Positions 34,278 to 52,853 of a DNA stretch of 64,000 nt are shown here, in pieces (position 1 is the first letter of the stretch; the number at the start of each line of letters is the position of its first letter). The stretch is from Candidatus Ruminimicrobiellum bubulum (GTDB lineage: Bacteria; Elusimicrobiota; Endomicrobiia; Endomicrobiales; Endomicrobiaceae). The stretch covers positions 1-64,000 of the forward strand of contig JAGCCP010000057.1 of assembly GCA_017651625.1 (NCBI GenBank), read 5' to 3'. The notes under the pieces were generated by a model. The model saw only the letters and a program-made list of their open reading frames with translations, searched no databases and was not told the DNA's origin. The position numbers were made by a program, and so were the translations under genes.

Positions 34278-35306
34278 TTAAATCTTTTCTAAACCTTCTG
34301 TTTCGGGTAAACCAAACATTATGTTCATATTTTGAACCGCTTGCCCGGATGCACCTTTAGTTAAATTATCTTGAACCGAAATTACTATAAGTTTGTTTGT
34401 TCTTTCATCTATACAAATTCCTATTTCAAGATAATTTGTTTCAACAACATTTTTTATTGAAGGAAGTTTACCTTCATCTAAAACTCTTACAAATTTTCTT
34501 CCTTCATAAAACTTTTTATACATTTCTATTACTTCACTAACGGAAACTTTTTTTGCCAAATCCATATAAATACAAGACAACATTCCTCTTTCCATAGGAA
34601 TAATTTGAGGAGTAAATGTTATAGTCACCGGTTTGCCGAACATATTAGATAATTCCTGTTCTATTTCGGGAATATGTCTGTGTTTGCCGCCGACTTTATA
34701 TGCTCTTGCCGTAGGTGCTTCTGTTTCATAATAGCTTTTTACACCTTTTCTTCCGGAACCGGAAACTCCGCTTTTGGAATCTATTATAATTCCTTCCGAT
34801 TTTACTAAACCATTTTTTATTGCAGGAGCAGATCCCAACAAAATCGTTGTGGGATAACAGCCGGGATTTGCAATAAGTTTTGCGGATTTTATTTCATCTT
34901 TATATATTTCACTTAACCCGTAAACGGCATCTTTTATATATTCTTTACCGGTATGTTTTACACCGTACCATTTTTCGTAAGTTTCAAAGTCTTTTATTCT
35001 GAAATCTGCAGATAAATCGATAACTTTTTTACCTGCTTTTAATAAATCCGGAACGACTTCAAAAGCAACAGCATGAGGCAAAGCCAAAAATACAACATCT
35101 GTTTCATTTTTTATTTGTTCGATGTTTAACGGATAACATTTCAAATTTAAATCAGCATATTTAGGATAAATATCTTTTAAATCTCTAAGTTCGGATGTTG
35201 CTCTTCCTGCAAGAACAGTTATTTTTACATCTTTACGTTTAGACAATATTCTTAATAATTCTTCTCCGGTATAACCTGTAATTCCTATAATTCCAACTCT
35301 AATCAT
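34278..35306 (-). CDS. argC: N-acetyl-gamma-glutamyl-phosphate reductase
   Basis: The 342-residue enzyme reduces N-acetylglutamyl-phosphate in arginine synthesis. It has the NADP-binding [11 protein letters not shown] block, the catalytic Cys in [10 protein letters not shown] (about 148), and the His of [12 protein letters not shown] (about 210). I start at 35306 (MIRVGII), where AAGGAAG lies eight bases upstream, not at the GTG at 35315. It is the only arginine gene in the window and precedes the MATE gene. Confidence 0.94.
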
Positions 35307-35383
35307 TTTATACACTTCCTTTTTATTATTTATGTTTTTATATCCCGATAATTTTACAAAATTTTAAATTGTTTTTATATAAC

Positions 35384-35420
35384 AAAAAATCAACGGCCGA
35401 TATTTTAACCGACCGTTGAT
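35384..35420 (-). terminator. Terminator of the giant gene
   Basis: On the minus strand ATCAACGG/CCGTTGAT (35389-35396 with 35413-35420), extended by two further pairs after one mismatch, followed by TTTTTTGTT. It separates the giant gene from argC. Confidence 0.85.
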
Positions 35421-35438
35421 TTTGAATTTCACTAAAAA

Positions 35439-38400
35439 CTATGCAGCTGCCAAGATGCTTCTTACAGCAATAGCTGAAATCTTTATATCTTGATTTACAT
35501 TCATTGCTTTCTTAAAGTCATCCATTAACAATTCAGGTATTCCTCTGAAATCAACAAGTTCTCCCTTTGCAGGTACACTGATACTGTATTCACTTTCTCT
35601 TAAGATATCGTCCAAGTTTTCATTTAGTTTAGCTCTTATAGAATTCAAATACTCTTTAGCCGTTAATTCATCCGAACCTTCTATCGTTGTATATAACTCT
35701 TGTATTGTTTTACCTTGCATCATTGCTTTAATTGTCATTATCAATACCGCTTGAACTTCGTTTGTCTTTATATCTCTCTGGAATTTTTCTTCGTCTATAG
35801 TTAAAATTTTTGATATATCGCTTACCAACGAATTCATTATTGATCCTCTTATAAAACCCAACACTTCTTCGTTATACCCTTTATCCAACAAATAAGTTAT
35901 GTAATTTGCTGCATCTTTGCTGAATACATTTCCTGCAACCAATGTTCTTATATCCTCTGCCTTACTTGCCGCTTCACTTAATTTTACCGATAACACTCCG
36001 CTGTCTATCAATGCTTGTATATTTGAAACACCATAGTCGAATTTAGTACTCATTGCCGCATTTTGTCCCTTCTTATATTTCCTTTCCGGCGACATTCCGC
36101 TTATACTGCTTATAGTTTCCATTACAGTTCTTATATTATCTAACAGACCGTTATTTAAATTTTCCATTGATTTTTTGTCTACCACCACACCTACTATTTC
36201 TTGGCCCTTTAACGCTTCTATGTCGGTCGCTTTCATTTCTCCTATTTCATCTACCTCTTTCTTGCCCCTTACACTTAATGCATTATTACCGCTTACTATA
36301 GGTATTACTCCATATTTTTCATATATGCTGCTGTCTTTCAAACTATCACTTAGTGCTTTTAATGTTTCTTCACTGAATTTTACCGATACCGTTATATCCA
36401 ATCCTTTTTTCAATGATAGTCTTGCAGTATGTATCTGTTTTAAGATTCCTTCCGCTTCCGCCAATGTCATATTCTTTCTACCGGACAAATCCAATATATA
36501 TTCATCACCGTTTACTTCCGCATTTTCCATTGTACCTATCAGTTCATTTACATCTGTTTCCATAATTACAAACTTATATGTATCTTTCAATCTCTCTATA
36601 TCTGCTCTGTGGTCTTCCGCTTGCGTTTTAGTCAATATAAATGTCACTATTCCTGTTTTATCTGCTATCGATTTAAAGCTTTCTCCTTCGCCATACATGT
36701 ATTTCATTCCTATAGGATTTATTACGGAATATGTATGTGCTATCTTCATAACATCTATAATAGTATCTATATTTCCTGTCTCTCCCGTGTATGAAATACT
36801 TCTTATATTTTTCAATCCTTTTATTTTTTTACCGGATTCCAACTTTGTTATCAACATGTTTATTATTTCGTCATTTACATCTATTGTTGCACTCTTTTTG
36901 ACACAGAAAATTAACTTACCGTCTTTTACTTTAACTCTTACAATATTACCGTTTCGATCTGTTCCTATGTTAACTCCACCCCTTTCATGTGAAGTTGCAA
37001 CAGACAAAACATTCATTCCCTGCCCTCTTAAAACCTTTGCCTGTTGTTCCTGTTGCTCTCCGACTAAAACTAAATTTTCCTCCAATTTAAAGCCCTGTTC
37101 TATTAAACTTTCAGCTTCTTTTGAACTTGTTATCAATCTTATTGCAGCCTGTTGTACAGAAGGCATAGAAGGATTAACGGAATTTTTTACCCCCTCTGTT
37201 GCAGCAGCCATCGCCGTTTGAGTTTGTTGTTGCTGTTCTTCTTCGGTTTGTGTTGTTTGTTTTGAAGGAGATGCTACAGATTCCGAAGAGGATTTGCCTG
37301 TTCCCAAATATTCAGACAAATCAAATTCTACTCTATTGAAATAATCTCTACCATCCTCATCCATATCCCATATTTCATCAGGTCTTACACCTGTTACATC
37401 AGTAACAGTCTTATTTATTTCATCCAACTCTATTAAACGAGCACCGGGAAGAGGATATATTATTAATTTATTATTTTTTATTTCATAACGGAAATGACCT
37501 CTCTTGCTTTCCATTCTTCTTGAATAACGATTATAAGTTGTAGTATCCAATTCTGTTTCCAAAGCACTTATTAATTCTTCTCTTTTTTCTTCTTGTATAG
37601 CTTGTGTTTGAGCAACAGATGTTTCCTGTTTGGTATCGGAATGAACACCATAAGCATCCTTTTTGGTCATAAGCGTTTCTATCTGTCTTGTTCGTTGATC
37701 AAGCTCTCTAAGTCTACGTGCTTTAGCCTCTTCGGAAATAAATGATGTCAGAATTCCGTTTCTTGCAATTTCTTTCATCATATTCCAATTCATCATTGTA
37801 TCATGTCCGGTCATGATAAGTTTTATATATTCCATATTTATGTCGGTTGTACACAACAAAGCATTATCTGTAGCAACAACACACCTAACTCCCGATTTTA
37901 ACAATGTTTCAACAGGATGTTCCTTTGCAAGTTGTGCATTTCCGCTATCTGCAACCGTCTGGAAGTTTACAGGTATTGATACTATATTACATGTAGGACA
38001 TATTTCTACTGTAACTTTATGGGCTTTTAAAAATTCAACATTATCGGGCCTTAGTACAACCTGAAGTCCGTGTCCGACTCTTTCAAGTCCCAAAAGATTT
38101 TCAACTGCTTCCCTTGCGGCATTAAAACCAGCTTTGCCTCCACGATATTTTTTTGTTCTTTCATTATATATTGCACGGTCGTATACAGGTGTTTCCGAAC
38201 TATGTATGGTTGTTCCGACTTTAGTCACATTTGATTTTGCATTATGTCTGGCAATTTTTCTGTAAATTTTGATAAAAGCACGTGGAGGAAGACCTACATC
38301 TTCCGAACCCGCAATATCAAATCCCAACCCTATATCTTTATATTTTTCACGTAAATCCTTTCTACTCGCAAATTTCAGAAGAGTATCTACTTGTCTTTCA

Positions 38401-41400
38401 ATATTTCCATTATCCAAATCATTGGTACCGTCTTTCCATATACTTCTTGATGCCAGAACAACACATGAAACATCCGGAACTCTCATACCTTTCGCTCTAA
38501 GTTCCTCACATGTTTTATTGATAGCATCCAAAACTATTGTCATTCCTTCTTCCGCACTGTAGTATTCCCAATTTTTTCTTGGAACTCTTAAATCTTTTAC
38601 CATAGAATCACATGCTGTTCTTATTTCTACAATACTCTGTCCTTTTTTTACGGCATCTTCTATTATAAACTTAATTACAGCTTCATAGTCTTCCCTTGTT
38701 CTTATAAGTTCTCCAATATCGCGATATGCATGGTTAAACGCATCAAGAGTGGCAAAACCTTCTTTTATTTGAGCTAAAGACTTTTCAGCCTTGTCGGCAA
38801 TATCTTGAGTAATAAGTCCGGCTTTTAATTTTTTGTCCAGTAGATCCATTATAAAATCTTCCGATACTGCCGTTTTAAAATGTTGGTGAGGATTTGTTTT
38901 AGGCATAAGTATTGTCATAGCAGCCACGGTAACAAGCATTTTCTCTCTTTCCGGAATGGAAGGATCATTTTGAACTTCATCAATTATATCACTGGCAGTT
39001 TTAAAGGCTTCATCAAAATCGGAAACATCAATTCTTGACAGATACCTTTCATACAAATCTCTGAGTATGCCGTCGGCTTCTTCGAATTTTTCTTTCAAAG
39101 TTTTTCCTTTAAAATCATAATAATACTCATCATGGTCTCTGTTTAAATCCGTGTAAAAGCCATTCACAAAACTTCTATAAGATTGTGTATTTCCGGACGA
39201 AGCATATGACTTAAGTTTTAAGAAAAATTCGGCGGATGTAGGGCTGTAAGGATCCGGAAGATATAGAGACAAGAAGCCTTTTTTGGGTGTTCCATCTTTT
39301 CTTGTAGTATCTGCAATTGGCATTGCATACACACTTATATCTTTTTTGCCTTCAAAGCCTGATTCAACATACATAACAACTTCTCCGGATTTTACGCGCA
39401 CATTACCTTCAGGTGTAGCAAGCATAGTTCCTTCAGGTACCATTACTACATTTGCAGTTGCCATCTTTGTAGCATCTATAACCGCTCCAGGAACCAAAGA
39501 TGCTTTATCGACAGGTATATATTTGCCCGCATTGTAATCAGACGTCTTGACATATTGCTCAAAGAAGGTTTCTCTTGAGCAGAAGCTTGAATATCTTAGG
39601 ATAATACTATCTTCTGATAATGCATCAGGATAACTCTCATTTTTCGAATACCATTTACCATCAGCTCTTTTTTCAAATCCATATTCTATAAGTTGTTGTT
39701 CGTTACTAAAATCGGGAACTAAAGCCTGAATACGATTATTCTTTGCAAATACCGGAACTTTGTACTTGAGTACAAACTCGGATTGTTCACTTTCTTTTCT
39801 CAGATCCAAAACGGTATCCTTTATACCATCAAGAGTAGAAGATATGCTTTCCATCTCTGCTTTCTTGGCAACTTCTGCAGCTTCGGAACCTAAATAAACA
39901 CGAATTGTTCCGTTATCTATTTTGGTATCTAAATTTTCAGTAATTTCAGGTACGGAACCTTTTAATATAGACTTCAAATAATACATATCTTTTATACCTC
40001 TGAAATCTATAGATATTGCCTTATTTTGGTATTTAGAGCTTTCCACTATTCTAATAACTGCCGCTATTAATTTTATTTGTTCTTCGATAGTCAAAGTAAT
40101 AACAGAATAACCTATATCCGATAAATAGGAATGCCATATTTGATATTTAATTTCCGAACCGAATGAAAAATCTTTTAAAAACTTTTTTATAGCTTTTCCG
40201 TCACCGTGAAAAGCTACATTCAACGCTTTATTAAAAGCTCTTGCAGTTGTAGGATCACTTGTAGGATTAAGTTGATTAAATCTTGCAAGAGCAACTGCTC
40301 TCTCATCTTTTGCATTTTGAGAATTTATTAATCTAACTCTATACGTCACTAAATCGTGAGAATACGGTTCCAAACCCTTTTCTTTATAATCGGAATTAAA
40401 ATAAGCCATTCCTTCATCGAGTAACCATTGAATCCAATTTGCATCTTCTGTTACATAAGGAACTTTTAACGGTGCACGTTGAGGGGTACCGATAGGTTCA
40501 AAAATATAATCATATCCCAAATCCGCCAAATATCTTTCAAGCGCCATTCTTGTTGTACTGCTGACAGACAATATTGCTTGTGCATCCGGATTTTTGGAAT
40601 TTAAAAGATTTGTTAAATTTTCTAAAATTTCTCTAAGGAATTTTGTTCCTCCATAGGCAGTTAAATCGTTTTCTCCTCTTAAATTTTCGGGTTCATCAAT
40701 ATACGGAGGGTTAACAACTATCATATCCATATTGCTTTCCAAGAAATCCAAACCTTGAATTCCGGGTCCCAATACAGGTATTAATTTTATTAAATCTTTC
40801 TTGGCTCGCTCAGCAGACTCTGCATCACCGCTTTCCAATGTTTTTAATATATTTGATAAAGACGCAACCAAAGCAAAAGGTGATATATCCGTAACATATA
40901 TATTTTCTACTCCATCCAATTGTGACATTGTTGCGGCTAAATGTCCTGCTCCCGTTCCAAATTCTATAACATTTTTAAATTTACCATCGATACCTTGTAT
41001 AACATCTGCGGCTAACACGGTATCTATCATTGTTCCCCAAACACCGCTATCAACTTCGGAATCAACAGAAGAAATTACATACTCATCTGTCCCGTCAGTA
41101 GTAGATAATTGTTGACATACATATACCCCGTGCTTCGGGTTATATAGTTGATCTATCACCTCATCAACATTTGATACACCTTGTTGTTTCAATTGTTCTC
41201 TTAATATTTCTTTTTTATTTAATGACGGAGTTAACAGATTTTCATCCGTTAAAGTAAGGAAAGATTTTATTTCTCCTTTTCCTATCTTTTCTAATATTTC
41301 TTCTCCCGAAATACCGCTGAATTCTTCCGGTATTTCATAATAATCTATAATTGTTTCTCCATGTTCACCTTTACGGAACATTTTAAATAAGGAATGTCTG

Positions 41401-44400
41401 ACTTCGGTATTTCTTTTATTAACTAATTCCATAATTTTGTCTATAGGTAATGCTTGCGGTCTCGGATATCCGCCTTCTGTATATTTTTCTCCTTTGTATC
41501 CGCTATATACAACATCACCTGTTTCCGGATCAAACTCAAAACCTAAACTTGTAATTATACTTCTAACTAAATCTATATAGTCTGAAACACTGCTTTCTTG
41601 TACACTTTCTGTTGTACCCTTTTCTTCTTCTGCAGGAAGATAACTTATCGGCAAACCGGTTTTTTCATCTATATTTACCATGTAATACATATTTTTTTCA
41701 TTCAATACTAAATATGCATCACGCCCTGCCGGTTTCGTCTGTGTTTCTCCCCACGGATCTTCTATAGATATTTCTTCATCTATCGGATATCCTAAATCAG
41801 ACATCTTTATCATTCTTGTAACGCCTTTCTTCGCTGCTCCAACTACATGACTGTCTCCTGCTAATATATCTTCTATTTCTTGTAATCTGTCATATAATGC
41901 CGCATTCTTTTCTCTTGCTTCTGCTACACTCATCTCTTCGTAATTTTCTTGATATCCGCCTACGGGATAGAAATCCAATGTTCCGTCTTTTTTTGTCTGT
42001 AACGATATTATGCTGCCTTTGTATCTGGCTTCAAGTTCTTTGTCCGAATATTTTTTTGAATCTACCCGGCCCAATACATCTTTTATAACTTTCGGTAATT
42101 TTACTTCTACCAAATTACCTTGTTCATCATAAACAAATAAATCATCCGACAATCTATATCCGAATATCGGCTCTTTCGTAAATCCATGGCTGTCCGGATT
42201 TGCTTGTGCTACTCTGTCTGCTATATCCATTTGACTGCCTATTGCAGGAACATAACTTATAGGTAATCCTGTACGTTCATCTATATTTACCATGTAGTAC
42301 AGATTTTCTTCATTCAATACTAAATATGCATCACGCCCTGCCGGTTTCGTCTGTGTAGTTCCCCACGGATCTTCTATAGATATTGCTTCATCTATCGGAT
42401 ATCCTAAATCGGACATTCTTATCATTTTTGTAACGCCTTTCTTTGCTGCTCCAACTACATGACTGTCTCCCGTTAATATATCTTCTATTCCTTGTAATCT
42501 GTCATATAATGCCGAATTCTTCTTTCTTGCTTCTGCTGTACTCATCTCTTCATATTTTTCTTGATATTCGCCTACAGGATAGAAATCAAATGTCCCGTCT
42601 TTTTTTGTCTGTAACGATATTATGCTGCCTTTGTATCTGGCTTCAAGTTCTTTGTCCGAATATTTTTTTGAATCTACTTGACCCAATACATCTTTTATAA
42701 CTTTTGGTAATCTTATTTCTACCAAATTACCTTCGTCATCATAAACAAACAAATCATCCGATAATCTATATCCGAATATCGGCTCTTTCGCAAATCCATT
42801 TCTTCTCGGTTTTGATTGTTTTACTCTGTCTGCTATATCTGCTTGACTAACTTTCCTTGCTTGCTCAGTAACTTGTTTAGCATCGGCAGGAGAAGATTGT
42901 TCATATTCTTCTTCCAAATCTTGAAGAATACCGCTTATTATGGGATCATCCGTCATTCGTAAATATTTAGCAATTTCTCTTAAATATATGTAATCTTTTT
43001 TCTTTTCTTCAAAAGACAATTCGTCATAATGGGCAGCAGATAATCCTTCCCAAGTATTGTTTACCGACCATCCGGCATGTATCAGTTTTAATGCCAAATG
43101 AGCATCTGTAATATTATGGTCTCTTAAATATTTTAATGTGGCTATTGTAACGGCTATTCCGTCTGTCTGCAAACCTATTAAGAACTGTTTTCTTTCCGCT
43201 TGAATCGCTCTCCAATTGCTCCAATCTTGTTTACCACTAGCATCTTTCACTGCACCATATTTTCCTATATCGTTGATAAGATATTCCCATGGAACTTGTA
43301 AAGTATTGGCTATAACCGTTTCTGCAAATTTTATTTTACCGCTATCTACTTGTTTTAAACCGTTATCGGTAAAATCTTTTCTTGTCAAATCATATTTTCC
43401 GCTTTTTACTTTTTCTATACCGGACGCACTTAAATATCCTTTTTCCAACCAATCTTGTGCATTTTGTTCTATATATTTTCTGGCTTCTATTATTTCTGTT
43501 CCATTCTTTGTAATCGCAATCTTCTTTGTCTTATAAAAAGCATTTATAAGTCCATAAAAAAGTTCTAATTTGTCTCCTTGAATATCAAAAATCGTAAGTT
43601 TTATTTTTTCTGTAGGGCTACGGAAATGTCTTCCTGTTATTTTTTCTCTGGCATCAGGAGTTAAACAATCTAACAGTGCTTCTGCATTAGGATTAATTTT
43701 TTCATCGAACAATCTTGTATCTATAACAGGAGATTCCGAAGAATTGATTTGATTATCTCTAATATCCTCGTAATAACTAGTATGAAATGTTTCTGCGGAA
43801 GCTAATGTTTGATCTATGTCTGCTGTAAGTGCTTCCGTGAAATCTTGAAAAGCTTGTGTTCCGTGTAATGCATGTTTTTTCAAAGTACTTTCATCAATTG
43901 TTTGTGACATATCGTCTTTTAATGAAGCAAGTTCCAACAACGGCTTCATTATTTCATCTATAGTCTCACTTTCAACATTCTTTGTCGCATCTCTATAGTA
44001 TTTTAATATCAAATCTAAAAAATCATCCATAATAGATCTTGTTTCCGTGGATTCTTCTGTCCTGAGTAAATCCAACGGATTTATGTCCGTGATATTAAAT
44101 ACTCTCTGTAAGATAGTTTGTACGGATGGTATTCCTCTAAATAATGTTCCGTAAGTATCTCTGTGATATCCCTCGGAATGTACTCCGCCTTTTTCAACTC
44201 TACTTTCAAAACCGGAATAAGCCGCTCTCGGTTTAGTAAGATATACCGGTAATCCCTGTTCATTTGTACCGGCCTCTATATACAACACTTCTTCACCGTT
44301 TTCCCCTCGTCTCGGATCAAGTTTAATTTCAAATTTAGACTCATCCAATATCTGTTGTTTCCAACCCCATTTGTATTCATGCTGATAAAAAGAATCGGCA

Positions 44401-47400
44401 AATTGAACACTGCTTGGTATAATATTTCCATCATCATCAAACTCAACTAAAATATTTAAAACATGTTCTTCTATATCGTTATCTTTGTCCGTACGAATTA
44501 ATTTTCCATCAACATCCGTAACAAAACTATACATATCATTCATAGCAACTTTACCGACAACCAAAGCTTCCATTGTAAGTAATTGCATATTTTGTAATTT
44601 TCTTATTTTTCTATATACTACTCTACTTGTAACAGGATTTGCTCTTGCATCTTTGTAATACTGCTGTAACCTCATTTCTTTCCAAACATCAAAGAAAACC
44701 TGTTTCATTTCTCCATGTTGCCTGCAATCTCCAATACCAAGCAAAAAGTCCAATATAATATTCGTTCTGGAATCGGTATCTGTTCCACTGGCAGTAAGTG
44801 CTTTTAAAGCCGCCATCTTATTATCAAATTCGCTGTGGCCATCACTTTTTAAATCTTCCATTCCCAATTCATCATTTCTATATTGCGTTCTGAGTATTAT
44901 GTCTATCTTTTTCATAAACTCGTCTAAACTTTCTACTTGATCGAGATTAAAATACTTTATAATTTGAATCGCAATATTCATATCTTCTCTGCCCAACATC
45001 ATTTCCTGGAGCCCACCGCCGAATCTATAGTTTCCGGAAATATGTTTTGTAACAGAATCATGTAAACTGTTTATTGGGATTCTATAACAGAAAGACAATA
45101 ATTCTCTCGTGAATCTCTCCTTCCTTGCTTGTTCGGCTTGTTGCGACAAAGTTGCATCGGTTACTTTCTGCTTAACAAGATATCTGTCAATAAAACTTTC
45201 GATATTTTCCAAGGACAATTCTTCCTTAAATTTTATCTCCGTTTCTATTAAATTTATTAAGCCTGAATCAGAATTAATTCTTGCTATTATAGCTCTGCTA
45301 TCTTCTTCTCCTAATTCTAATATTGAAGACATTACCGATGCAAAAACAGCTTTACTTTTGTTCGAATATGCTATTGCTTTTGATAGAGCAGACATAATAT
45401 CTTGTGCTGCTTTTTCTTTATCTTCGCTCTTAACAGCAGATTTATATTCTGCAACAATTAATTCCAATTTCTTCAAATACAACTTAGTAATAATCTTCAT
45501 CAAATTTTCAATATCTTTATTGGATTTTTCACCTTCTTTATCAAAAAGTTTTTGCGATAAAAGATTTTCTAAATTTGATAACGTAGAATTTATTTCCCAA
45601 GGGTGATGTGCAAACTCACAAGCTTTGTCTAAAATTTTATTTACACTACTAAATCCAGTTTTTGTACTATGCATACCGTTTATAGTCATAGCCTCTACCA
45701 TTGTAACAAGTGTCCAATAATCTCCGGATCTTACACCTCCTGCTTTTTCTGTGGAGTAATATACTAAAGCTGCTAAATTTTTTGCATCTTCCAACATTTG
45801 TGCCCTTTCAGTTTCATCGGTTGTTAATTCTGCTAATTCCCTTAATCTATACACTGCATTAATTCCGGGATAATAGTAGTGATCTATTTCAAATCCTTTA
45901 TTGTAAGCCTCGTAAGATGCCCTTAATGCTACTTTTGCTTCTTCTAATCTGCCGCTTTTTATGGCCTCTTCATATTGTTTATGATAAGCCTGTCCCAATG
46001 CTCCGAACATACCGCCTTTTTCCCTAGCCTGTTTATATCTTTCATAATAAGCCTTACCCAATGCTCCGTATAATTCACCATTCATTTCATCTAAATTTTC
46101 TTGTTCCAGTTTACTCAATGCATCTATGGTTTTTTCAAAATTATTTGTTTTATTAAATGCAACAAAATACAATTCTCTGATTTCAATAGAATTTTTAAAT
46201 TCTTTTGCGGAATCACCTGTTTTTTCATACAAATCTATCATTTTCTCAAAAAGGCCATTATCTCTATACAAATAGAATAAAATTGTTGCCTGCATAGAAT
46301 CTAAATTTTCATATCCGCCGAATTCTTCCAAAATAGTTGCTATTTTATCTTTATTTGTTCCTGCACCTAAAAGTTTTTCATTAACAATACCCTGAATATA
46401 AGCATAATATGCTCTAACCCATCCATTAGTTATCTGTAAATTATCTATATCCTTAAAATCTAATTCTCCGTCATCAACATCTTTCATTATTTCTTTGATT
46501 TTTTTATCAATTTGTTTTAATATCTCAGCGTCACTTAAATTTATGTTTGAAGCATCAGCATTTAAAACGGCTAATATTGCACCTTTTAATTCATATTCTG
46601 TAAATAAATATTTTGAATATCTTCTTTGTACTTCCGGCAACAATTGAATAATTCTGGTATTTTTTGAAACTTCTTTCGAAGAAGATCTTACTTGTTGCTC
46701 TGCTGACGGTAAAACGGCTTTACCGACATAAGACATGTAAGTTCTTATTGTATCTTGCAAAGCAGATATTGATTGTTGTAAAACCGGTTGTTGTAAAACA
46801 TCAATAAGTCTTTGTAATTCACTTATATCACCTTCCAACGCACTTTCAAAAGTATCCTTAAATTTTTCTGTATCTATGCTTCTTAAAAATTCTTCCGTAA
46901 CGGGCTCTTTACTATATTTATTCAGTTCATCTATAATTTTTTGTAAAACTTCACCGGAATCATCGGATTCCAACAATTTTGCAGCGGCAATTTGTATTTT
47001 TTCTCTTGCTTCTTCTTCCGATAAAGTTGATAAATCTTCCGTTGCTTGTTTATTTCCTGTTAATATAAAATCAAACAATTCTTGTCTCTTAGATGACGGT
47101 AACAAAGAAAGAATCAAATTTGCCAATGCTTGGAAAGAAATTTTGCTTTGTTCCTTTGCTATTTCATAATATGTATCTTCCGCAAGTTTTACTCCGTCGG
47201 TAACATTAGGAGTTATAACTATGTAACTTACTCCGTGATCTTTTAATATTTCCGTTACGGTTTGAGAATGGAAACCTCCGGTTATTACAACATCTACTTC
47301 TTTTACGCCTTTCATGTTGTCTATTATTTTGTTTACATCATCCTTATTCTCAACTTCCGTTTCTATCTTATTTAATACTTCACCTTCATGAAACATATTC

Positions 47401-48701
47401 CTCGTAAAATATATGTTTCTGTCTGTATTTATCTTGTAAAAAGTATCTGCTTCCGCTAAATAGTCATCTAATAAGCTTAAAACTCTGTTATCTACATATT
47501 CGTTCCACAACTCTCTGAATTTTTCTATATTTTCCTTATAATATTCATAATCTTTGGATGTTATTTTACTGGAAACATAATCCTTTATATATCTTTCAAA
47601 GTTGGTCAGGAATACAACTTCTCTTTGTGCTTTCGTTTCCGAAAACATTGTATTTATTTCCATTACCAACTGTTCTTCTTCATCAATTAAATCTAACGGA
47701 TTTATTTTTTGACTGAACTCTATGTAACCGAAATAGTTGTCTAAATCAGGAAAGTTTGTTGTTAAATCTAAGCCCAACTGTCTGCTTATTTTTATTATGT
47801 AACCATACAATTTATCTATCTTTGAAAAATTATCGGTATTATCCACCAACATTTGATATGCGTTGTATGGCAAGTTTTCGTTTAATAACAACACTAAATT
47901 TTGCAAATCGTTCGTTATCTTTGAATAATCCAACTTCTTTTGCATATCAAGCAACATCATGTATGTAAACGTATTTTCGTACTTACTTAAATCTACTTCT
48001 AATTTGTCCGTATGTTTAGATAATAATGCATAATATTTCTGCGGAGTGATTGTTCCTTCTCTGTAATTCTTTGAAAGTTCCTCTAATTTATATTGTCTTT
48101 TTGAGTAATATTGTTGCTTCAATTGAGCTAAAGATTCATCAATTGCATTCAATATTAAATTTATCTTTCCCTGGTTTTCTACTATGTCTCCGAATCTTTT
48201 TAAATTGTCTAAATACGGTCCTTTTTCTTCCAACCCGTTTATTATTTTATTTTTTCCGCTTATAACACTGTAATATTCCGCTCCGGTCAATCTTCCGGTA
48301 TCTAACATTTTATCCAATAAATCCGGCATACTGTATTCTTGCACTTTTTTACTTATCCAACTTGTATCTACTTGACCGTATGCACCTTCCAAATATACTT
48401 TTTTTACTCCAAAACTGCTATCAAATATTTCTATTATGTTACTGATATTTTTTTGAACTTTCGGATGGCAATGCAAATCTTGTATATTTATTATTACTCT
48501 GTCGGTTCCGGCATAATGTGCACTTGTTATTTGTCCATAATTATACGGCAACATGAAATCTTTGAATATTTGTTTATACTTACTTGTTGCCTCTTCGTTT
48601 GTCATAGCATTGGCTGCCGTAGGTCCTATGACAAAAGAAAGCATCAAACAACTTGCCGTTACGATGCTTATAAACTTTTTTAATTTTATTAAAATTTTCA
48701 T
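35439..48701 (-). CDS. Giant secreted multidomain protein with adenosine deaminase and methyltransferase-like domains
   Basis: One uninterrupted reading frame of about 4,420 codons, starting ATG at 48701 behind GGGAGG (the TTG at 48713 lies inside that ribosome-binding site). Residue numbers below count from the TTG. A signal peptide (about 5-36, ending AANA) is followed by a conserved module (about 40-520) with IQDLHCHPKVQ, LEGAYGQVDTSW and a GGFHSQ motif, vaguely like the TIKI/ChaN/TraB superfamily. Next come helical and TPR-like parts (about 800-1010, resembling DUF4071), a RyR-like stretch (about 1880-1910), a 204-residue tandem duplication (1954-2361), a Rossmann methyltransferase-like domain with EFGTGAGH and NPPY (about 2570-2740), an adenosine deaminase domain (about 3270-3680), a Gln-rich linker (about 3820) and a C-terminal helical part. 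Most of it is unassigned. No stop or frameshift interrupts it. Stretches near 38,000-40,500 look somewhat less AT-rich than the rest. Confidence 0.9.
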   Translation of the reverse strand: MKILIKLKKFISIVTASCLMLSFVIGPTAANAMTNEEATSKYKQIFKDFMLPYNYGQITSAHYAGTDRVIINIQDLHCHPKVQKNISNIIEIFDSSFGVKKVYLEGAYGQVDTSWISKKVQEYSMPDLLDKMLDTGRLTGAEYYSVISGKNKIINGLEEKGPYLDNLKRFGDIVENQGKINLILNAIDESLAQLKQQYYSKRQYKLEELSKNYREGTITPQKYYALLSKHTDKLEVDLSKYENTFTYMMLLDMQKKLDYSKITNDLQNLVLLLNENLPYNAYQMLVDNTDNFSKIDKLYGYIIKISRQLGLDLTTNFPDLDNYFGYIEFSQKINPLDLIDEEEQLVMEINTMFSETKAQREVVFLTNFERYIKDYVSSKITSKDYEYYKENIEKFRELWNEYVDNRVLSLLDDYLAEADTFYKINTDRNIYFTRNMFHEGEVLNKIETEVENKDDVNKIIDNMKGVKEVDVVITGGFHSQTVTEILKDHGVSYIVITPNVTDGVKLAEDTYYEIAKEQSKISFQALANLILSLLPSSKRQELFDFILTGNKQATEDLSTLSEEEAREKIQIAAAKLLESDDSGEVLQKIIDELNKYSKEPVTEEFLRSIDTEKFKDTFESALEGDISELQRLIDVLQQPVLQQSISALQDTIRTYMSYVGKAVLPSAEQQVRSSSKEVSKNTRIIQLLPEVQRRYSKYLFTEYELKGAILAVLNADASNINLSDAEILKQIDKKIKEIMKDVDDGELDFKDIDNLQITNGWVRAYYAYIQGIVNEKLLGAGTNKDKIATILEEFGGYENLDSMQATILFYLYRDNGLFEKMIDLYEKTGDSAKEFKNSIEIRELYFVAFNKTNNFEKTIDALSKLEQENLDEMNGELYGALGKAYYERYKQAREKGGMFGALGQAYHKQYEEAIKSGRLEEAKVALRASYEAYNKGFEIDHYYYPGINAVYRLRELAELTTDETERAQMLEDAKNLAALVYYSTEKAGGVRSGDYWTLVTMVEAMTINGMHSTKTGFSSVNKILDKACEFAHHPWEINSTLSNLENLLSQKLFDKEGEKSNKDIENLMKIITKLYLKKLELIVAEYKSAVKSEDKEKAAQDIMSALSKAIAYSNKSKAVFASVMSSILELGEEDSRAIIARINSDSGLINLIETEIKFKEELSLENIESFIDRYLVKQKVTDATLSQQAEQARKERFTRELLSFCYRIPINSLHDSVTKHISGNYRFGGGLQEMMLGREDMNIAIQIIKYFNLDQVESLDEFMKKIDIILRTQYRNDELGMEDLKSDGHSEFDNKMAALKALTASGTDTDSRTNIILDFLLGIGDCRQHGEMKQVFFDVWKEMRLQQYYKDARANPVTSRVVYRKIRKLQNMQLLTMEALVVGKVAMNDMYSFVTDVDGKLIRTDKDNDIEEHVLNILVEFDDDGNIIPSSVQFADSFYQHEYKWGWKQQILDESKFEIKLDPRRGENGEEVLYIEAGTNEQGLPVYLTKPRAAYSGFESRVEKGGVHSEGYHRDTYGTLFRGIPSVQTILQRVFNITDINPLDLLRTEESTETRSIMDDFLDLILKYYRDATKNVESETIDEIMKPLLELASLKDDMSQTIDESTLKKHALHGTQAFQDFTEALTADIDQTLASAETFHTSYYEDIRDNQINSSESPVIDTRLFDEKINPNAEALLDCLTPDAREKITGRHFRSPTEKIKLTIFDIQGDKLELFYGLINAFYKTKKIAITKNGTEIIEARKYIEQNAQDWLEKGYLSASGIEKVKSGKYDLTRKDFTDNGLKQVDSGKIKFAETVIANTLQVPWEYLINDIGKYGAVKDASGKQDWSNWRAIQAERKQFLIGLQTDGIAVTIATLKYLRDHNITDAHLALKLIHAGWSVNNTWEGLSAAHYDELSFEEKKKDYIYLREIAKYLRMTDDPIISGILQDLEEEYEQSSPADAKQVTEQARKVSQADIADRVKQSKPRRNGFAKEPIFGYRLSDDLFVYDDEGNLVEIRLPKVIKDVLGQVDSKKYSDKELEARYKGSIISLQTKKDGTFDFYPVGEYQEKYEEMSTAEARKKNSALYDRLQGIEDILTGDSHVVGAAKKGVTKMIRMSDLGYPIDEAISIEDPWGTTQTKPAGRDAYLVLNEENLYYMVNIDERTGLPISYVPAIGSQMDIADRVAQANPDSHGFTKEPIFGYRLSDDLFVYDEQGNLVEVKLPKVIKDVLGRVDSKKYSDKELEARYKGSIISLQTKKDGTLDFYPVGGYQENYEEMSVAEAREKNAALYDRLQEIEDILAGDSHVVGAAKKGVTRMIKMSDLGYPIDEEISIEDPWGETQTKPAGRDAYLVLNEKNMYYMVNIDEKTGLPISYLPAEEEKGTTESVQESSVSDYIDLVRSIITSLGFEFDPETGDVVYSGYKGEKYTEGGYPRPQALPIDKIMELVNKRNTEVRHSLFKMFRKGEHGETIIDYYEIPEEFSGISGEEILEKIGKGEIKSFLTLTDENLLTPSLNKKEILREQLKQQGVSNVDEVIDQLYNPKHGVYVCQQLSTTDGTDEYVISSVDSEVDSGVWGTMIDTVLAADVIQGIDGKFKNVIEFGTGAGHLAATMSQLDGVENIYVTDISPFALVASLSNILKTLESGDAESAERAKKDLIKLIPVLGPGIQGLDFLESNMDMIVVNPPYIDEPENLRGENDLTAYGGTKFLREILENLTNLLNSKNPDAQAILSVSSTTRMALERYLADLGYDYIFEPIGTPQRAPLKVPYVTEDANWIQWLLDEGMAYFNSDYKEKGLEPYSHDLVTYRVRLINSQNAKDERAVALARFNQLNPTSDPTTARAFNKALNVAFHGDGKAIKKFLKDFSFGSEIKYQIWHSYLSDIGYSVITLTIEEQIKLIAAVIRIVESSKYQNKAISIDFRGIKDMYYLKSILKGSVPEITENLDTKIDNGTIRVYLGSEAAEVAKKAEMESISSTLDGIKDTVLDLRKESEQSEFVLKYKVPVFAKNNRIQALVPDFSNEQQLIEYGFEKRADGKWYSKNESYPDALSEDSIILRYSSFCSRETFFEQYVKTSDYNAGKYIPVDKASLVPGAVIDATKMATANVVMVPEGTMLATPEGNVRVKSGEVVMYVESGFEGKKDISVYAMPIADTTRKDGTPKKGFLSLYLPDPYSPTSAEFFLKLKSYASSGNTQSYRSFVNGFYTDLNRDHDEYYYDFKGKTLKEKFEEADGILRDLYERYLSRIDVSDFDEAFKTASDIIDEVQNDPSIPEREKMLVTVAAMTILMPKTNPHQHFKTAVSEDFIMDLLDKKLKAGLITQDIADKAEKSLAQIKEGFATLDAFNHAYRDIGELIRTREDYEAVIKFIIEDAVKKGQSIVEIRTACDSMVKDLRVPRKNWEYYSAEEGMTIVLDAINKTCEELRAKGMRVPDVSCVVLASRSIWKDGTNDLDNGNIERQVDTLLKFASRKDLREKYKDIGLGFDIAGSEDVGLPPRAFIKIYRKIARHNAKSNVTKVGTTIHSSETPVYDRAIYNERTKKYRGGKAGFNAAREAVENLLGLERVGHGLQVVLRPDNVEFLKAHKVTVEICPTCNIVSIPVNFQTVADSGNAQLAKEHPVETLLKSGVRCVVATDNALLCTTDINMEYIKLIMTGHDTMMNWNMMKEIARNGILTSFISEEAKARRLRELDQRTRQIETLMTKKDAYGVHSDTKQETSVAQTQAIQEEKREELISALETELDTTTYNRYSRRMESKRGHFRYEIKNNKLIIYPLPGARLIELDEINKTVTDVTGVRPDEIWDMDEDGRDYFNRVEFDLSEYLGTGKSSSESVASPSKQTTQTEEEQQQQTQTAMAAATEGVKNSVNPSMPSVQQAAIRLITSSKEAESLIEQGFKLEENLVLVGEQQEQQAKVLRGQGMNVLSVATSHERGGVNIGTDRNGNIVRVKVKDGKLIFCVKKSATIDVNDEIINMLITKLESGKKIKGLKNIRSISYTGETGNIDTIIDVMKIAHTYSVINPIGMKYMYGEGESFKSIADKTGIVTFILTKTQAEDHRADIERLKDTYKFVIMETDVNELIGTMENAEVNGDEYILDLSGRKNMTLAEAEGILKQIHTARLSLKKGLDITVSVKFSEETLKALSDSLKDSSIYEKYGVIPIVSGNNALSVRGKKEVDEIGEMKATDIEALKGQEIVGVVVDKKSMENLNNGLLDNIRTVMETISSISGMSPERKYKKGQNAAMSTKFDYGVSNIQALIDSGVLSVKLSEAASKAEDIRTLVAGNVFSKDAANYITYLLDKGYNEEVLGFIRGSIMNSLVSDISKILTIDEEKFQRDIKTNEVQAVLIMTIKAMMQGKTIQELYTTIEGSDELTAKEYLNSIRAKLNENLDDILRESEYSISVPAKGELVDFRGIPELLMDDFKKAMNVNQDIKISAIAVRSILAAA
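41629..42240 (-). repeat. 612-base tandem repeat unit II inside the giant gene
   Basis: The second copy in reading order, about 204 codons. It shares KEPIFGYRLSDDLFVYD, KVIKDVLGxVDSKKYSDKE and GDSHVVGAAKKGVT with unit I and is offset by exactly 612 bases (204 codons), so the frame is kept. Confidence 0.9.
42241..42852 (-). repeat. 612-base tandem repeat unit I inside the giant gene
   Basis: The first copy in reading order. Most residues match unit II. The copies differ mainly at the start (VKQSKPRRNGFA against VAQANPDSHGFT) and in scattered conservative changes, consistent with a recent in-frame duplication. Confidence 0.9.
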
Positions 48702-48714
48702 ATTTCCTCCCAAT

Positions 48715-48749
48715 AAAAAAAGCTTGTATTGTTTTTACACAATACAAGC
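48715..48749 (-). terminator. Terminator/attenuator between the 166-codon gene and the giant gene
   Basis: A perfect 11-bp stem GCTTGTATTGT / ACAATACAAGC (48739-48749 with 48722-48732) with loop GTAAAA, followed by seven T (48715-48721). The stop codon TAA of the upstream gene lies in the loop, and the giant gene's ribosome-binding site begins four bases after the T-run. A ribosome arriving at that stop codon would cover the hairpin. Confidence 0.85.
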
Positions 48750-49235
48750 CCTTTCTATATACATTTTATTATAATCAACTGATATAGATCTCGGTAAAAC
48801 ATTAAATAATATTTTGGTTAGTAGTAACAGAAAGACACTTAACAACCAAAATGGTATTTTTAACGGATATTCTATTTCTTTACTCAAATAATTTGTTATG
48901 AATAAAACACCGTTATTAACATTATTAAAATTAAGATTCGAATTTAATGTTGTTTTATATACTATTGACGGTATTAAAAACTCAGTTATTTTATTAAGGC
49001 CTTTTTTATCGGTATCTTTCTTACTTTTTTGTTGTTTATTACCATTCATTTTCTGTGAAAGCATATTCGCTACTATATCGTCCGAAAAAGTTTTCACTGC
49101 AAAAAAATGTTCAACCATGCTCGACTTAATAACACCGGAACATTTGATGTTTGTTATAGTCAAGGACATAAAATTGAACATCAAAAAAAGCATAACAAAA
49201 AGTGATAATGCTTTATTTTTTAAAGACACTTTCAT
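48735..49235 (-). CDS. Small membrane protein upstream of the giant gene, unknown function
   Basis: A 166-residue protein with an N-terminal hydrophobic segment (about 9-30), a polar middle region rich in Asn and Lys (about 35-105, KTFSDDIVANML ... MNGNKQQKSKKDTDKK) and a C-terminal membrane segment (about 128-148, IPFWLLSVFLLLLTKILF). It would sit in the inner membrane with the middle part outside, if the first segment is not cleaved. A consensus promoter ends six bases before the ATG and there is no ribosome-binding site, so translation is probably leaderless. The stop codon lies inside the following terminator loop. I do not recognise the family; the genomic link to the giant gene is its main clue. 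Confidence 0.75.
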   Translation of the reverse strand: MKVSLKNKALSLFVMLFLMFNFMSLTITNIKCSGVIKSSMVEHFFAVKTFSDDIVANMLSQKMNGNKQQKSKKDTDKKGLNKITEFLIPSIVYKTTLNSNLNFNNVNNGVLFITNYLSKEIEYPLKIPFWLLSVFLLLLTKILFNVLPRSISVDYNKMYIERACIV

Positions 49236-51263: not shown

Positions 51264-52853
51264 TTATTTTTCTATGTATACCTTGTAATCAATATCAGAA
51301 AAGATATTATTTACATATTCTAAGTTAGAAAGGAAACTTTCGTCAATAGAATTGTTTTTTATTTGATGATATAACGTCGTAAAATTATATATATGTTCCT
51401 TTGTTCTCTTTTCTGCATATTCTACCATTGTTCCGGTAGTCATAATAAATGCCCAATCAGAAGATTGTGCCAATAACAATTCTCTTGCTGCTTGATTCAA
51501 TGCTCTTAATTTTATTCCGTCGGCATTTTGATTTGATGTAGCAATTTCTACCATTCTGTCTGCTGCCATATTTAAATGTTTATATATCCAATCGTTCTTA
51601 GGATTTAACCATACTTTATAATATCCTTCATCTCCCCATGACGACGGCGACGGCTGACAAACTTGGTTTACCGGGAACTTATCTAAATACTGAACGGGAG
51701 TCATTGGTTTAAACGAAGCATTTGCTTCCTGCATAGTTCTGAATATATGATTTATAAAGTTTGGACCTTCAAACCACCAATGTCCGAAAAGTTCGGCATC
51801 ATACATAGACACAACCAAAGGTTCTTTTTGCATAATCCCCTGCAAATGTTCTATCTGTTTTGTCCTGTTAAACACAAAATTTTCGGCATGCATTTTAGCC
51901 TTATTATTTGCCCATTCGGGATTATAAGGTTGCTTTTCATTTAGTGGTACCTTACCGGTTATTCTGCAATATTTTACACCTATATTTCTTCTTACTCCGT
52001 CGGAGTGTAAATACGGTCTTATATAATCATAGTCTAAATCGTAAGCTAAATCTCTGTAAAATTCCCTGTAGTCCACATCTCCGGGATAACCGCATTCAGC
52101 ACTCCAAACCTGATGTGCCGTTTCCATATCTCTACTAAAAGCTGCAACACCGTTTTTGCAATATATCGGAGCAAAAACTCCGTATTTTGGTCTCGGTGTT
52201 GCATACAATATTCCATGCGACTCTAAAAAGAAAAATCTTATTTGAGCTTCTTTTAAAAATTTCTCTACACCATAAGTATATGCACATTCGGCAAGCCATA
52301 TACCGTTAGGTTTTCTGCCGAAATGTTTTTGATAATCTTTAACAGCAACTTGTATTTGTGCTCTTTGTGCGGTTTCATTTGTCATTAAAGGTAAGAATCC
52401 GTGAGTGGCACAACACGTAATAATTTCAAGTTTACCGGCATCTTGAAGATTTTTAAACCCGGTTAAAATGTTGCCGTGATATTTTTCCCAAATTCTTCTG
52501 CAATTTTTAAAATTTTGTTCATACATCAAAGCAACGGAATGATATTCCGGTAAATTTATTGTTCTTAAAACTTCTTTTTCGGATAGTTCTATAAGTTTAT
52601 TTAATTTTGCATAGTATCTTGATTGTAATAAAGGATCTGCTAACATATTTGCAAGAGAAGGAGTAATTGTCATTGTTACCGCAAAATTAATATTATCTCT
52701 TACAAAATTTTCGAAAACGGATAAAAGAGGAATGTACGTTTCCGTTATGGCTTCATATAACCAATCCTCTTCCAAAAAATCCGGATAGTTTGGATGACGA
52801 ACGAAAGGCAAATGAGCATGTAATTGAAGACACCAATATCCTTTATTATTCAT
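51264..52853 (-). CDS. GH57 1,4-alpha-glucan branching enzyme (DUF1957 family)
   Basis: The 529-residue protein has the GH57 layout: LQLHAHLPFVRHPNYPDFLEEDW at the start, the catalytic nucleophile Glu in GIWLAECAYTYG (about 184), the acid/base Asp in SMYDAELFGHWWFEGP (about 358), and the C-terminal helical DUF1957 domain (SSDWAFIMTTGTMVEYAEKR, about 470). It makes alpha-1,6 branches in glycogen-like glucan. It follows the DUF4912 gene by 24 bases, a pairing known in several phyla. A CGGAA ribosome-binding site is present. Confidence 0.92.
   Translation of the reverse strand: MNNKGYWCLQLHAHLPFVRHPNYPDFLEEDWLYEAITETYIPLLSVFENFVRDNINFAVTMTITPSLANMLADPLLQSRYYAKLNKLIELSEKEVLRTINLPEYHSVALMYEQNFKNCRRIWEKYHGNILTGFKNLQDAGKLEIITCCATHGFLPLMTNETAQRAQIQVAVKDYQKHFGRKPNGIWLAECAYTYGVEKFLKEAQIRFFFLESHGILYATPRPKYGVFAPIYCKNGVAAFSRDMETAHQVWSAECGYPGDVDYREFYRDLAYDLDYDYIRPYLHSDGVRRNIGVKYCRITGKVPLNEKQPYNPEWANNKAKMHAENFVFNRTKQIEHLQGIMQKEPLVVSMYDAELFGHWWFEGPNFINHIFRTMQEANASFKPMTPVQYLDKFPVNQVCQPSPSSWGDEGYYKVWLNPKNDWIYKHLNMAADRMVEIATSNQNADGIKLRALNQAARELLLAQSSDWAFIMTTGTMVEYAEKRTKEHIYNFTTLYHQIKNNSIDESFLSNLEYVNNIFSDIDYKVYIEK

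Follow-up and report, generated by a model that had tools for sequence, protein, structure and literature searches.

Constant ends and an exchangeable interior in a giant protein gene of Candidatus Ruminimicrobiellum bubulum (Elusimicrobiota)

Introduction

Giant proteins are a recognised and unexplained trait of the Elusimicrobiota and Omnitrophota. Published reports describe Elusimicrobiota as rich in huge proteins (PMC11573180) and Omnitrophota as having giant open reading frames (ORFs) of unclear role (PMC10066038). Here we describe one such gene, referred to as the giant, which occupies positions 35,439 to 48,701 of a 64-kb stretch of Candidatus Ruminimicrobiellum bubulum DNA (the window), and we compare its N-terminal part (the head), its C-terminal end (the tail) and the interior between them with those of its relatives. 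The ORFs reported earlier come from the same or neighbouring phyla and are likewise very large, exported and of open function; those reports deal with size and scattered domains and, in the text consulted, name no common head, tail or exchange (PMC10066038, PMC11573180). A literature search, with subscription papers and preprints mostly outside it, found no description of head, tail or interior exchange.

Several described systems resemble the giant in part. The TIKI/EreA/ChaN group (Tiki, EreA/EreC, ChaN, Bcr135 and RRSP) has the pattern [DE]xH...28...E...R...H in common with the head, whereas the head carries a helical insert of ~300 residues, has Asp for the first Glu, forms the constant N-terminal part of giants and scores significantly by neither sequence nor fold. 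MARTX toxins are also giant secreted chains with a variable centre between conserved ends, and one known MARTX effector is of the TIKI family (PMC6315884, PMC6254334). The giants differ from them in having a predicted signal peptide, in using TIKI as a constant head, in occurring as many paralogs per genome and in ending in a tail of 9-12 residues instead of repeat arms; Pfam and NCBIfam scans of the giant found no RTX family and no autoprocessing cysteine protease domain, the MARTX hallmarks sought. Polymorphic toxins join a constant N-terminal part to exchangeable cassettes (PMC3482391), as the giants do, whereas in the giants the variable region is internal, a constant end follows it, there is no C-terminal toxin, and argC rather than an immunity gene comes next. 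The giants are best read as analogous to MARTX and polymorphic toxins and as homologous to neither. Cad1, a CARF-adenosine deaminase, has its adenosine deaminase domain in common with the giant, which in contrast is predicted to be exported and has no CARF match.

An Interior Replaced Between Constant Ends

Among named relatives, Candidatus Ruminimicrobiellum ovillum and sheep-rumen Elusimicrobia are the nearest. Compared by blastn with the R. ovillum locus (L083), the window matches at ~87% over the stretch between 58.7 kb and 47,120, where the head ends; between 47,120 and 35,468 there is no DNA match, and over 34,992-35,468, from the first base of the tail AVRSILAAA into argC, identity is 92%. 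The same pattern is seen against RGIG6610 (L105), with 84% before the gap and 91% past it, and argC is the next gene at all three loci. Across the last ten codons, identity per five codons climbs from roughly 30-55% to 80-93%. These orthologous loci hold ORFs of 4,420 (window), 3,743 (L083) and 5,557 aa (L105) that differ in their interiors. Set between constant ends, the interior is an exchangeable cassette that has been replaced whole at this locus in related species, and closely related rumen species of this kind provide a natural experiment in cassette exchange. In our best reading, which we hold to be about evenly balanced between right and wrong, the giant is an exported, effector-like platform for several enzymes, its ends fixed and its interior open to exchange.

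The features of the giant are as follows (window positions; residues in P0001 numbering, which includes 4 extra residues N-terminal of the Met):

35,439-48,701, minus strand: whole gene, 4,420 aa, ATG at 48,701 and stop at 35,439
48,606-48,701, minus strand: signal-peptide-like N-terminus, predicted cleavage past ...AANA (sequence, hydrophobicity, and a hydrophobic region conserved in heads)
47,121-48,554, minus strand: TIKI/EreA/ChaN-type head, residues ~54-531, with a large helical insert (invariant D79, H81, E109, R432, H482)
45,852-46,250, minus strand: TPR-S (Tetratricopeptide Repeats-Sensor), residues 822-954 (Pfam PF20308, 8.2e-13)
44,394-44,732, minus strand: candidate Cys-His-Asp set (C1330, H1417, D1440), hydrolase-like, recognised by eye and kept in L086
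42,237-42,842, minus strand: 200-aa duplicated module, copy 1, residues 1958-2159 (tandem repeat)
41,631-42,230, minus strand: 200-aa duplicated module, copy 2, residues 2162-2361 (tandem repeat)
40,515-41,057, minus strand: PrmC/HemK-like methyltransferase (4.2e-8; EFGTGAG and NPPY motifs; pN/pS 0.14)
37,698-38,903, minus strand: adenosine deaminase domain, residues 3271-3672 (Pfam A_deaminase, 4.4e-25)
35,544-37,193, minus strand: C-terminal TIM-barrel-like module and helices, common to many giants (structure model, comparison among giants)
35,442-35,468, minus strand: constant tail AVRSILAAA (between-species DNA identity restarts exactly here)
35,472-47,096, minus strand: variable interior (two related species have other modules at this locus)
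35,386-35,423, minus strand: transcription terminator hairpin, 16 pairs

A preliminary description of this DNA had reported a single 13.2-kb frame of about 4,420 residues with a signal peptide, a strong ribosome-binding site and a terminator. The gene is indeed one intact ORF, but it lies on the minus strand, where the frame has no stops over 48,713-35,439; plus-strand coding was rejected, its translation being riddled with stops. The start reads GGGAGGAAAT-ATG, with GGGAGG before the ATG, the hairpin follows directly past the stop, and the N-terminus, MKILIKLKKFISIVTASCLMLSFVIGPTAANA, is signal-peptide-like and forms the sole strongly hydrophobic stretch in a hydrophobicity scan. The corresponding modules are likewise open in L086, a relative from another assembly, and pN/pS computed per module between the two is 0.14-0.67, indicating purifying selection in every module tested; the frame is therefore neither chance nor a sequencing artefact. 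Conservation is highest in the methyltransferase, followed by the head (0.21), TPR-S (0.29), the Cys-His-Asp region (0.34), the C-terminal module and residues 1700-2060 (0.51-0.53) and the linker 545-820 (0.67). The low Cys content (0.36% vs 1.10% in neighbours, a small reference set) and the acidic charge fit an extracytoplasmic location, and export, probably by the Sec route, is predicted for the protein. About 20 nt upstream of the start codon and adjoining the ribosome-binding site, a terminator-like hairpin followed by seven T (48,720-48,750, minus strand) might act as an attenuator; L083 and L105 share the leader DNA in which it lies.

The earlier view of cytoplasmic-type enzymes in an exported giant of an Elusimicrobiota-type genome agrees with these results, as do its TIKI/ChaN-like, TPR, duplicated, methyltransferase and adenosine deaminase modules, all of which were recovered. 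Its RyR-like stretch was given up, since neither the whole protein nor the fragment had a Pfam match to RyR, and its C-terminal helical part does contain helices and also a TIM-barrel-like module. In the predicted model this C-terminal module gave barrel matches at a probability of up to 1.0 with E-values >0.001 and without an enzyme family. No significant PDB sequence match was found for the duplicated or the C-terminal module, nor for the Cys-His-Asp region, which also lacked a family match. The A_deaminase match exceeds the Pfam curated cut-off and is far under the NCBIfam equivalog cut-off; the HxH, HSSE, GHG and TD motifs are kept, and the second Asp of TDD is replaced by Asn (TDN). A related deaminase module with the same active-site pattern, likewise TDN for TDD, occurs in another giant (L106), and L086 lacks the deaminase part between modules that are otherwise similar.

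The deaminase is also the point of contact with phage defence. The part matches the CARF-ADA/Cad1 model of PADLOC (1.4e-16), and the support for the phage-defence shell suggested earlier comes down to this adenosine-deaminase fold. TPR-S is known from conflict systems and can be counted on the same side. Against such a role stand the signal peptide, the restriction of the PADLOC match to the deaminase part with no CARF part, the housekeeping neighbours and the unrelated metabolic enzymes in other members of the family, so that we regard a phage-defence component as very improbable.

The Head

Thirteen columns are invariant across 24 heads, including D79, H81, E109, R432 and H482. The active site of TIKI enzymes combines 2His/2Glu with an Arg close by, as in RRSP (E3900, H3902, E3930, R4001, H4030), and the active-site residues of Bcr135 are H85 and E113 (PMC6254334). 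The five residues of the head map onto the RRSP set in that order, the spacing from His to Glu is 28 residues in the head (H81-E109), in RRSP and in Bcr135, and a basic residue beside the active site, R432, is invariant in heads as the counterpart of R4001; the first Glu of the TIKI set is Asp (D79). Based on this active-site pattern, the head is filed as putatively TIKI-type. The AlphaFold model of the head (pLDDT 84.8) was compared by Foldseek, where EreC, Bcr135 (3b55) and ChaN were among the listed matches, all weak (E 0.16-4). That the head came from a virus, plasmid or phage was considered and set aside, no relatives having been found there.

The Tail

In the source genome, a short motif (for example VRSILAAA, IKAILSAA or VRRMLASA) closes all complete head-bearing ORFs. 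A strict DNA pattern for [IM]Lx-A-A-stop was searched in the source genome and in two relatives (G003 and G010) and gave 10 matches in each; every one of the 30 forms the in-frame end of an ORF that can be followed upstream for 505 aa or more, as far as the sequence examined reaches. Because synonymous codons vary among the tails, the constraint acts on the protein. With a looser motif, 16 matches were obtained among 120 ORFs of at least 100 aa in the stretches of the source genome that were examined, all of them ends of giants. Related families of the order retain the tail (IRATLSAA, VKALLGAA, IKKVLLAA), and in G111, a distant family of Elusimicrobiota, all 10 complete giants have a different but uniform ending, [NQS]A. 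In the predicted model the tail is a low-confidence isolated helix past a disordered linker.

Tags added by the ssrA system end in Ala-Ala with Leu at -3. The tail could therefore be a proteolysis or quality-control tag of the ssrA type (...LAA) that clears unexported or truncated giants, rather than a sorting signal, and the Ala-Ala ending and its occurrence on giants only would suit such a tag. The register is off, however, with Leu at -4 instead of -3, and the giants of G111 end in [NQS]A; we consider the degradation tag rather improbable. A tmRNA was sought for comparison with the tail and none was recognised.

A Family of Giants and Its Cargo

In the source Endomicrobiaceae genome the head (residues ~1-531) begins 17 ORFs of 1,029-6,745 aa, which together with one headless fragment at a contig edge make up 54,147 aa, 8.6% of the genome (one protein split across contigs C46 and C18 was rejoined through a 45-aa overlap). 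Heads are present in 51 of 120 relative genomes; at most 12 candidates were scored per genome, and in the many genomes that reach 12 the head count is a lower bound. In g8, a genus whose genomes are small (0.6-1.4 Mb), there are 0-5 heads, one copy carrying five stops, about 20 or more heads are found in G111, and one Omnitrophota genome has four. The giant is one locus in a multi-locus family of modular giants predicted to be exported ("TIKI-headed giants"). The domain order was rightly called unusual, and it is not a fixed one-off: in this large family of paralogs the ends stay constant while the interior is exchanged, and the order is one of many permutations. In G007 (L086 11,093-11,378) a second head starts directly past the stop of the first giant, forming tandem giants at one locus. 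The shortest ORF, of 1,029 aa (L102), encodes a head-and-tail protein whose MFS-type membrane domain is expected to place at least this family member in the membrane. The giants of G111 (L174-L184) share an ES-x-FW-x-x-RR-like motif just past the signal peptide.

The interiors of the paralogs carry PGI and phosphoglucomutase (PGM) in L090, PPDK-type domains in L091 and C9, and a CBM48/amylase debranching-type enzyme in L095, whose debranching-like module (860-1480 aa) retains the catalytic Asp, Glu and His-Asp motifs; HD, metallophosphatase, ABC1 kinase, M48 peptidase, LMW phosphatase, cytidine deaminase and MFS domains occur in others. The debranching enzyme, PGM, PGI and PPDK-type domains are suggestive of a starch and sugar-phosphate theme, as judged from domain assignments. 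The PGI-PGM giant (L090/L152; G000:C54:253,468-265,432) lies directly downstream of a stand-alone PGI gene, and this adjacency is found in the source genome, G003 and G010, suggesting that cargo, which is in some cases a diverged duplicate, can arise through capture of a neighbouring housekeeping gene. Exported copies of housekeeping enzymes, here PGI fused with PGM beside an ordinary PGI gene, are unusual among bacteria.

By inspection, catalytic motifs are mostly retained in the cargo, the exceptions being the PGI copy, without the Glu of EPGTNGQ, and the TDN deaminase. These exceptions bear on an alternative in which the giants are envelope or surface scaffolds, with captured folds, many of them catalytically inactive, serving as spacers or binding surfaces, and with head and tail fixing the chain to the envelope or to partner cells. 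The altered PGI and the TDN in two distant giants agree with it, and giant ORFs of Omnitrophota have been interpreted as adhesins or coats (PMC10066038). Retained motifs in most other cargo inspected, the methyltransferase as the most conserved module and the lack of typical adhesin domains argue the other way, and we rate the scaffold as unlikely.

Peptidase-like motifs raise a different alternative. HExxH zincin motifs were noted in L089, L098 (three), L101, L104 (two), L105, L107 and L083, as well as in L185-L187 and in giants of G059/G064, and L104 has an M48 family match. The giant might then be an exported polyprotein that is cleaved in the envelope into separate enzymes, by the head or by built-in proteases, with constant ends that serve export only. 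Besides these motifs, the candidate Cys-His-Asp set, a TIKI head that may be a peptidase and the weak constraint on the linker 545-820 are in its favour. A recurring cleavage motif was, however, not noticed, although no systematic search for one was made; domain scans found no known processing protease family in the giant, and a tail that serves only the export of a chain cut afterwards would be unusual. A polyprotein is accordingly given a low probability.

A Working Model

Of the polyprotein and surface-effector readings put forward earlier, cassette exchange favours the effector-like one. In an effector-like platform, export by Sec would be the first step, and a partner specific to the lineage would read the tail and pass on, anchor or release the full-length chains. 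For the head, the model predicts a hydrolase (peptidase or esterase) acting on a partner or on its own chain, and the interior enzymes would work outside the producer, most likely on protist or bacterial cells living alongside, while the family would diversify by swapping payloads between constant ends, as in MARTX or polymorphic toxins. More broadly, and more tentatively, we propose that Elusimicrobiota and Omnitrophota have a hitherto undescribed platform for export and delivery (or display), in which a TIKI-type head and a lineage-specific tail would define a class of cargo, a dedicated machine would read the tail, and the interiors would be a fast-exchanged arsenal of enzymes, including duplicated central-metabolism enzymes, acting on partner cells. 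Constant ends divide the question of the role of giants into testable parts: the family can be recognised by its last dozen residues, the head comes with a catalytic hypothesis, and there is a tail receptor to seek.

Several points weigh against the effector-like platform. Export is read from sequence alone, and the head has no significant match in Pfam, PDB sequences or Foldseek. The PGI copy means that the cargo is not necessarily all catalytic, and phosphosugar and nucleotide enzymes would be without substrates outside cells unless they entered one. Families of the order without an established lifestyle carry heads as well, so that a protist target is conjectural. No secretion gene lies beside the giant, and the neighbours are housekeeping genes, none of which hints at a dedicated secretion machine.

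Organism and Neighbourhood

The contig from which the 64-kb window is taken measures 80.5 kb and belongs to a genome of 1.88 Mb that is 100% complete. The genus is thought to be associated with rumen ciliates, and Endomicrobiaceae 16S sequences from picked Isotricha fall within its radiation (PMC11257099); the words "giant" and "large protein" are absent from the text of that study. Upstream of the giant, the neighbour at 51,264-52,853 encodes a GH57 branching enzyme (BE_C), adjoined by a gene for a DUF4912 protein.
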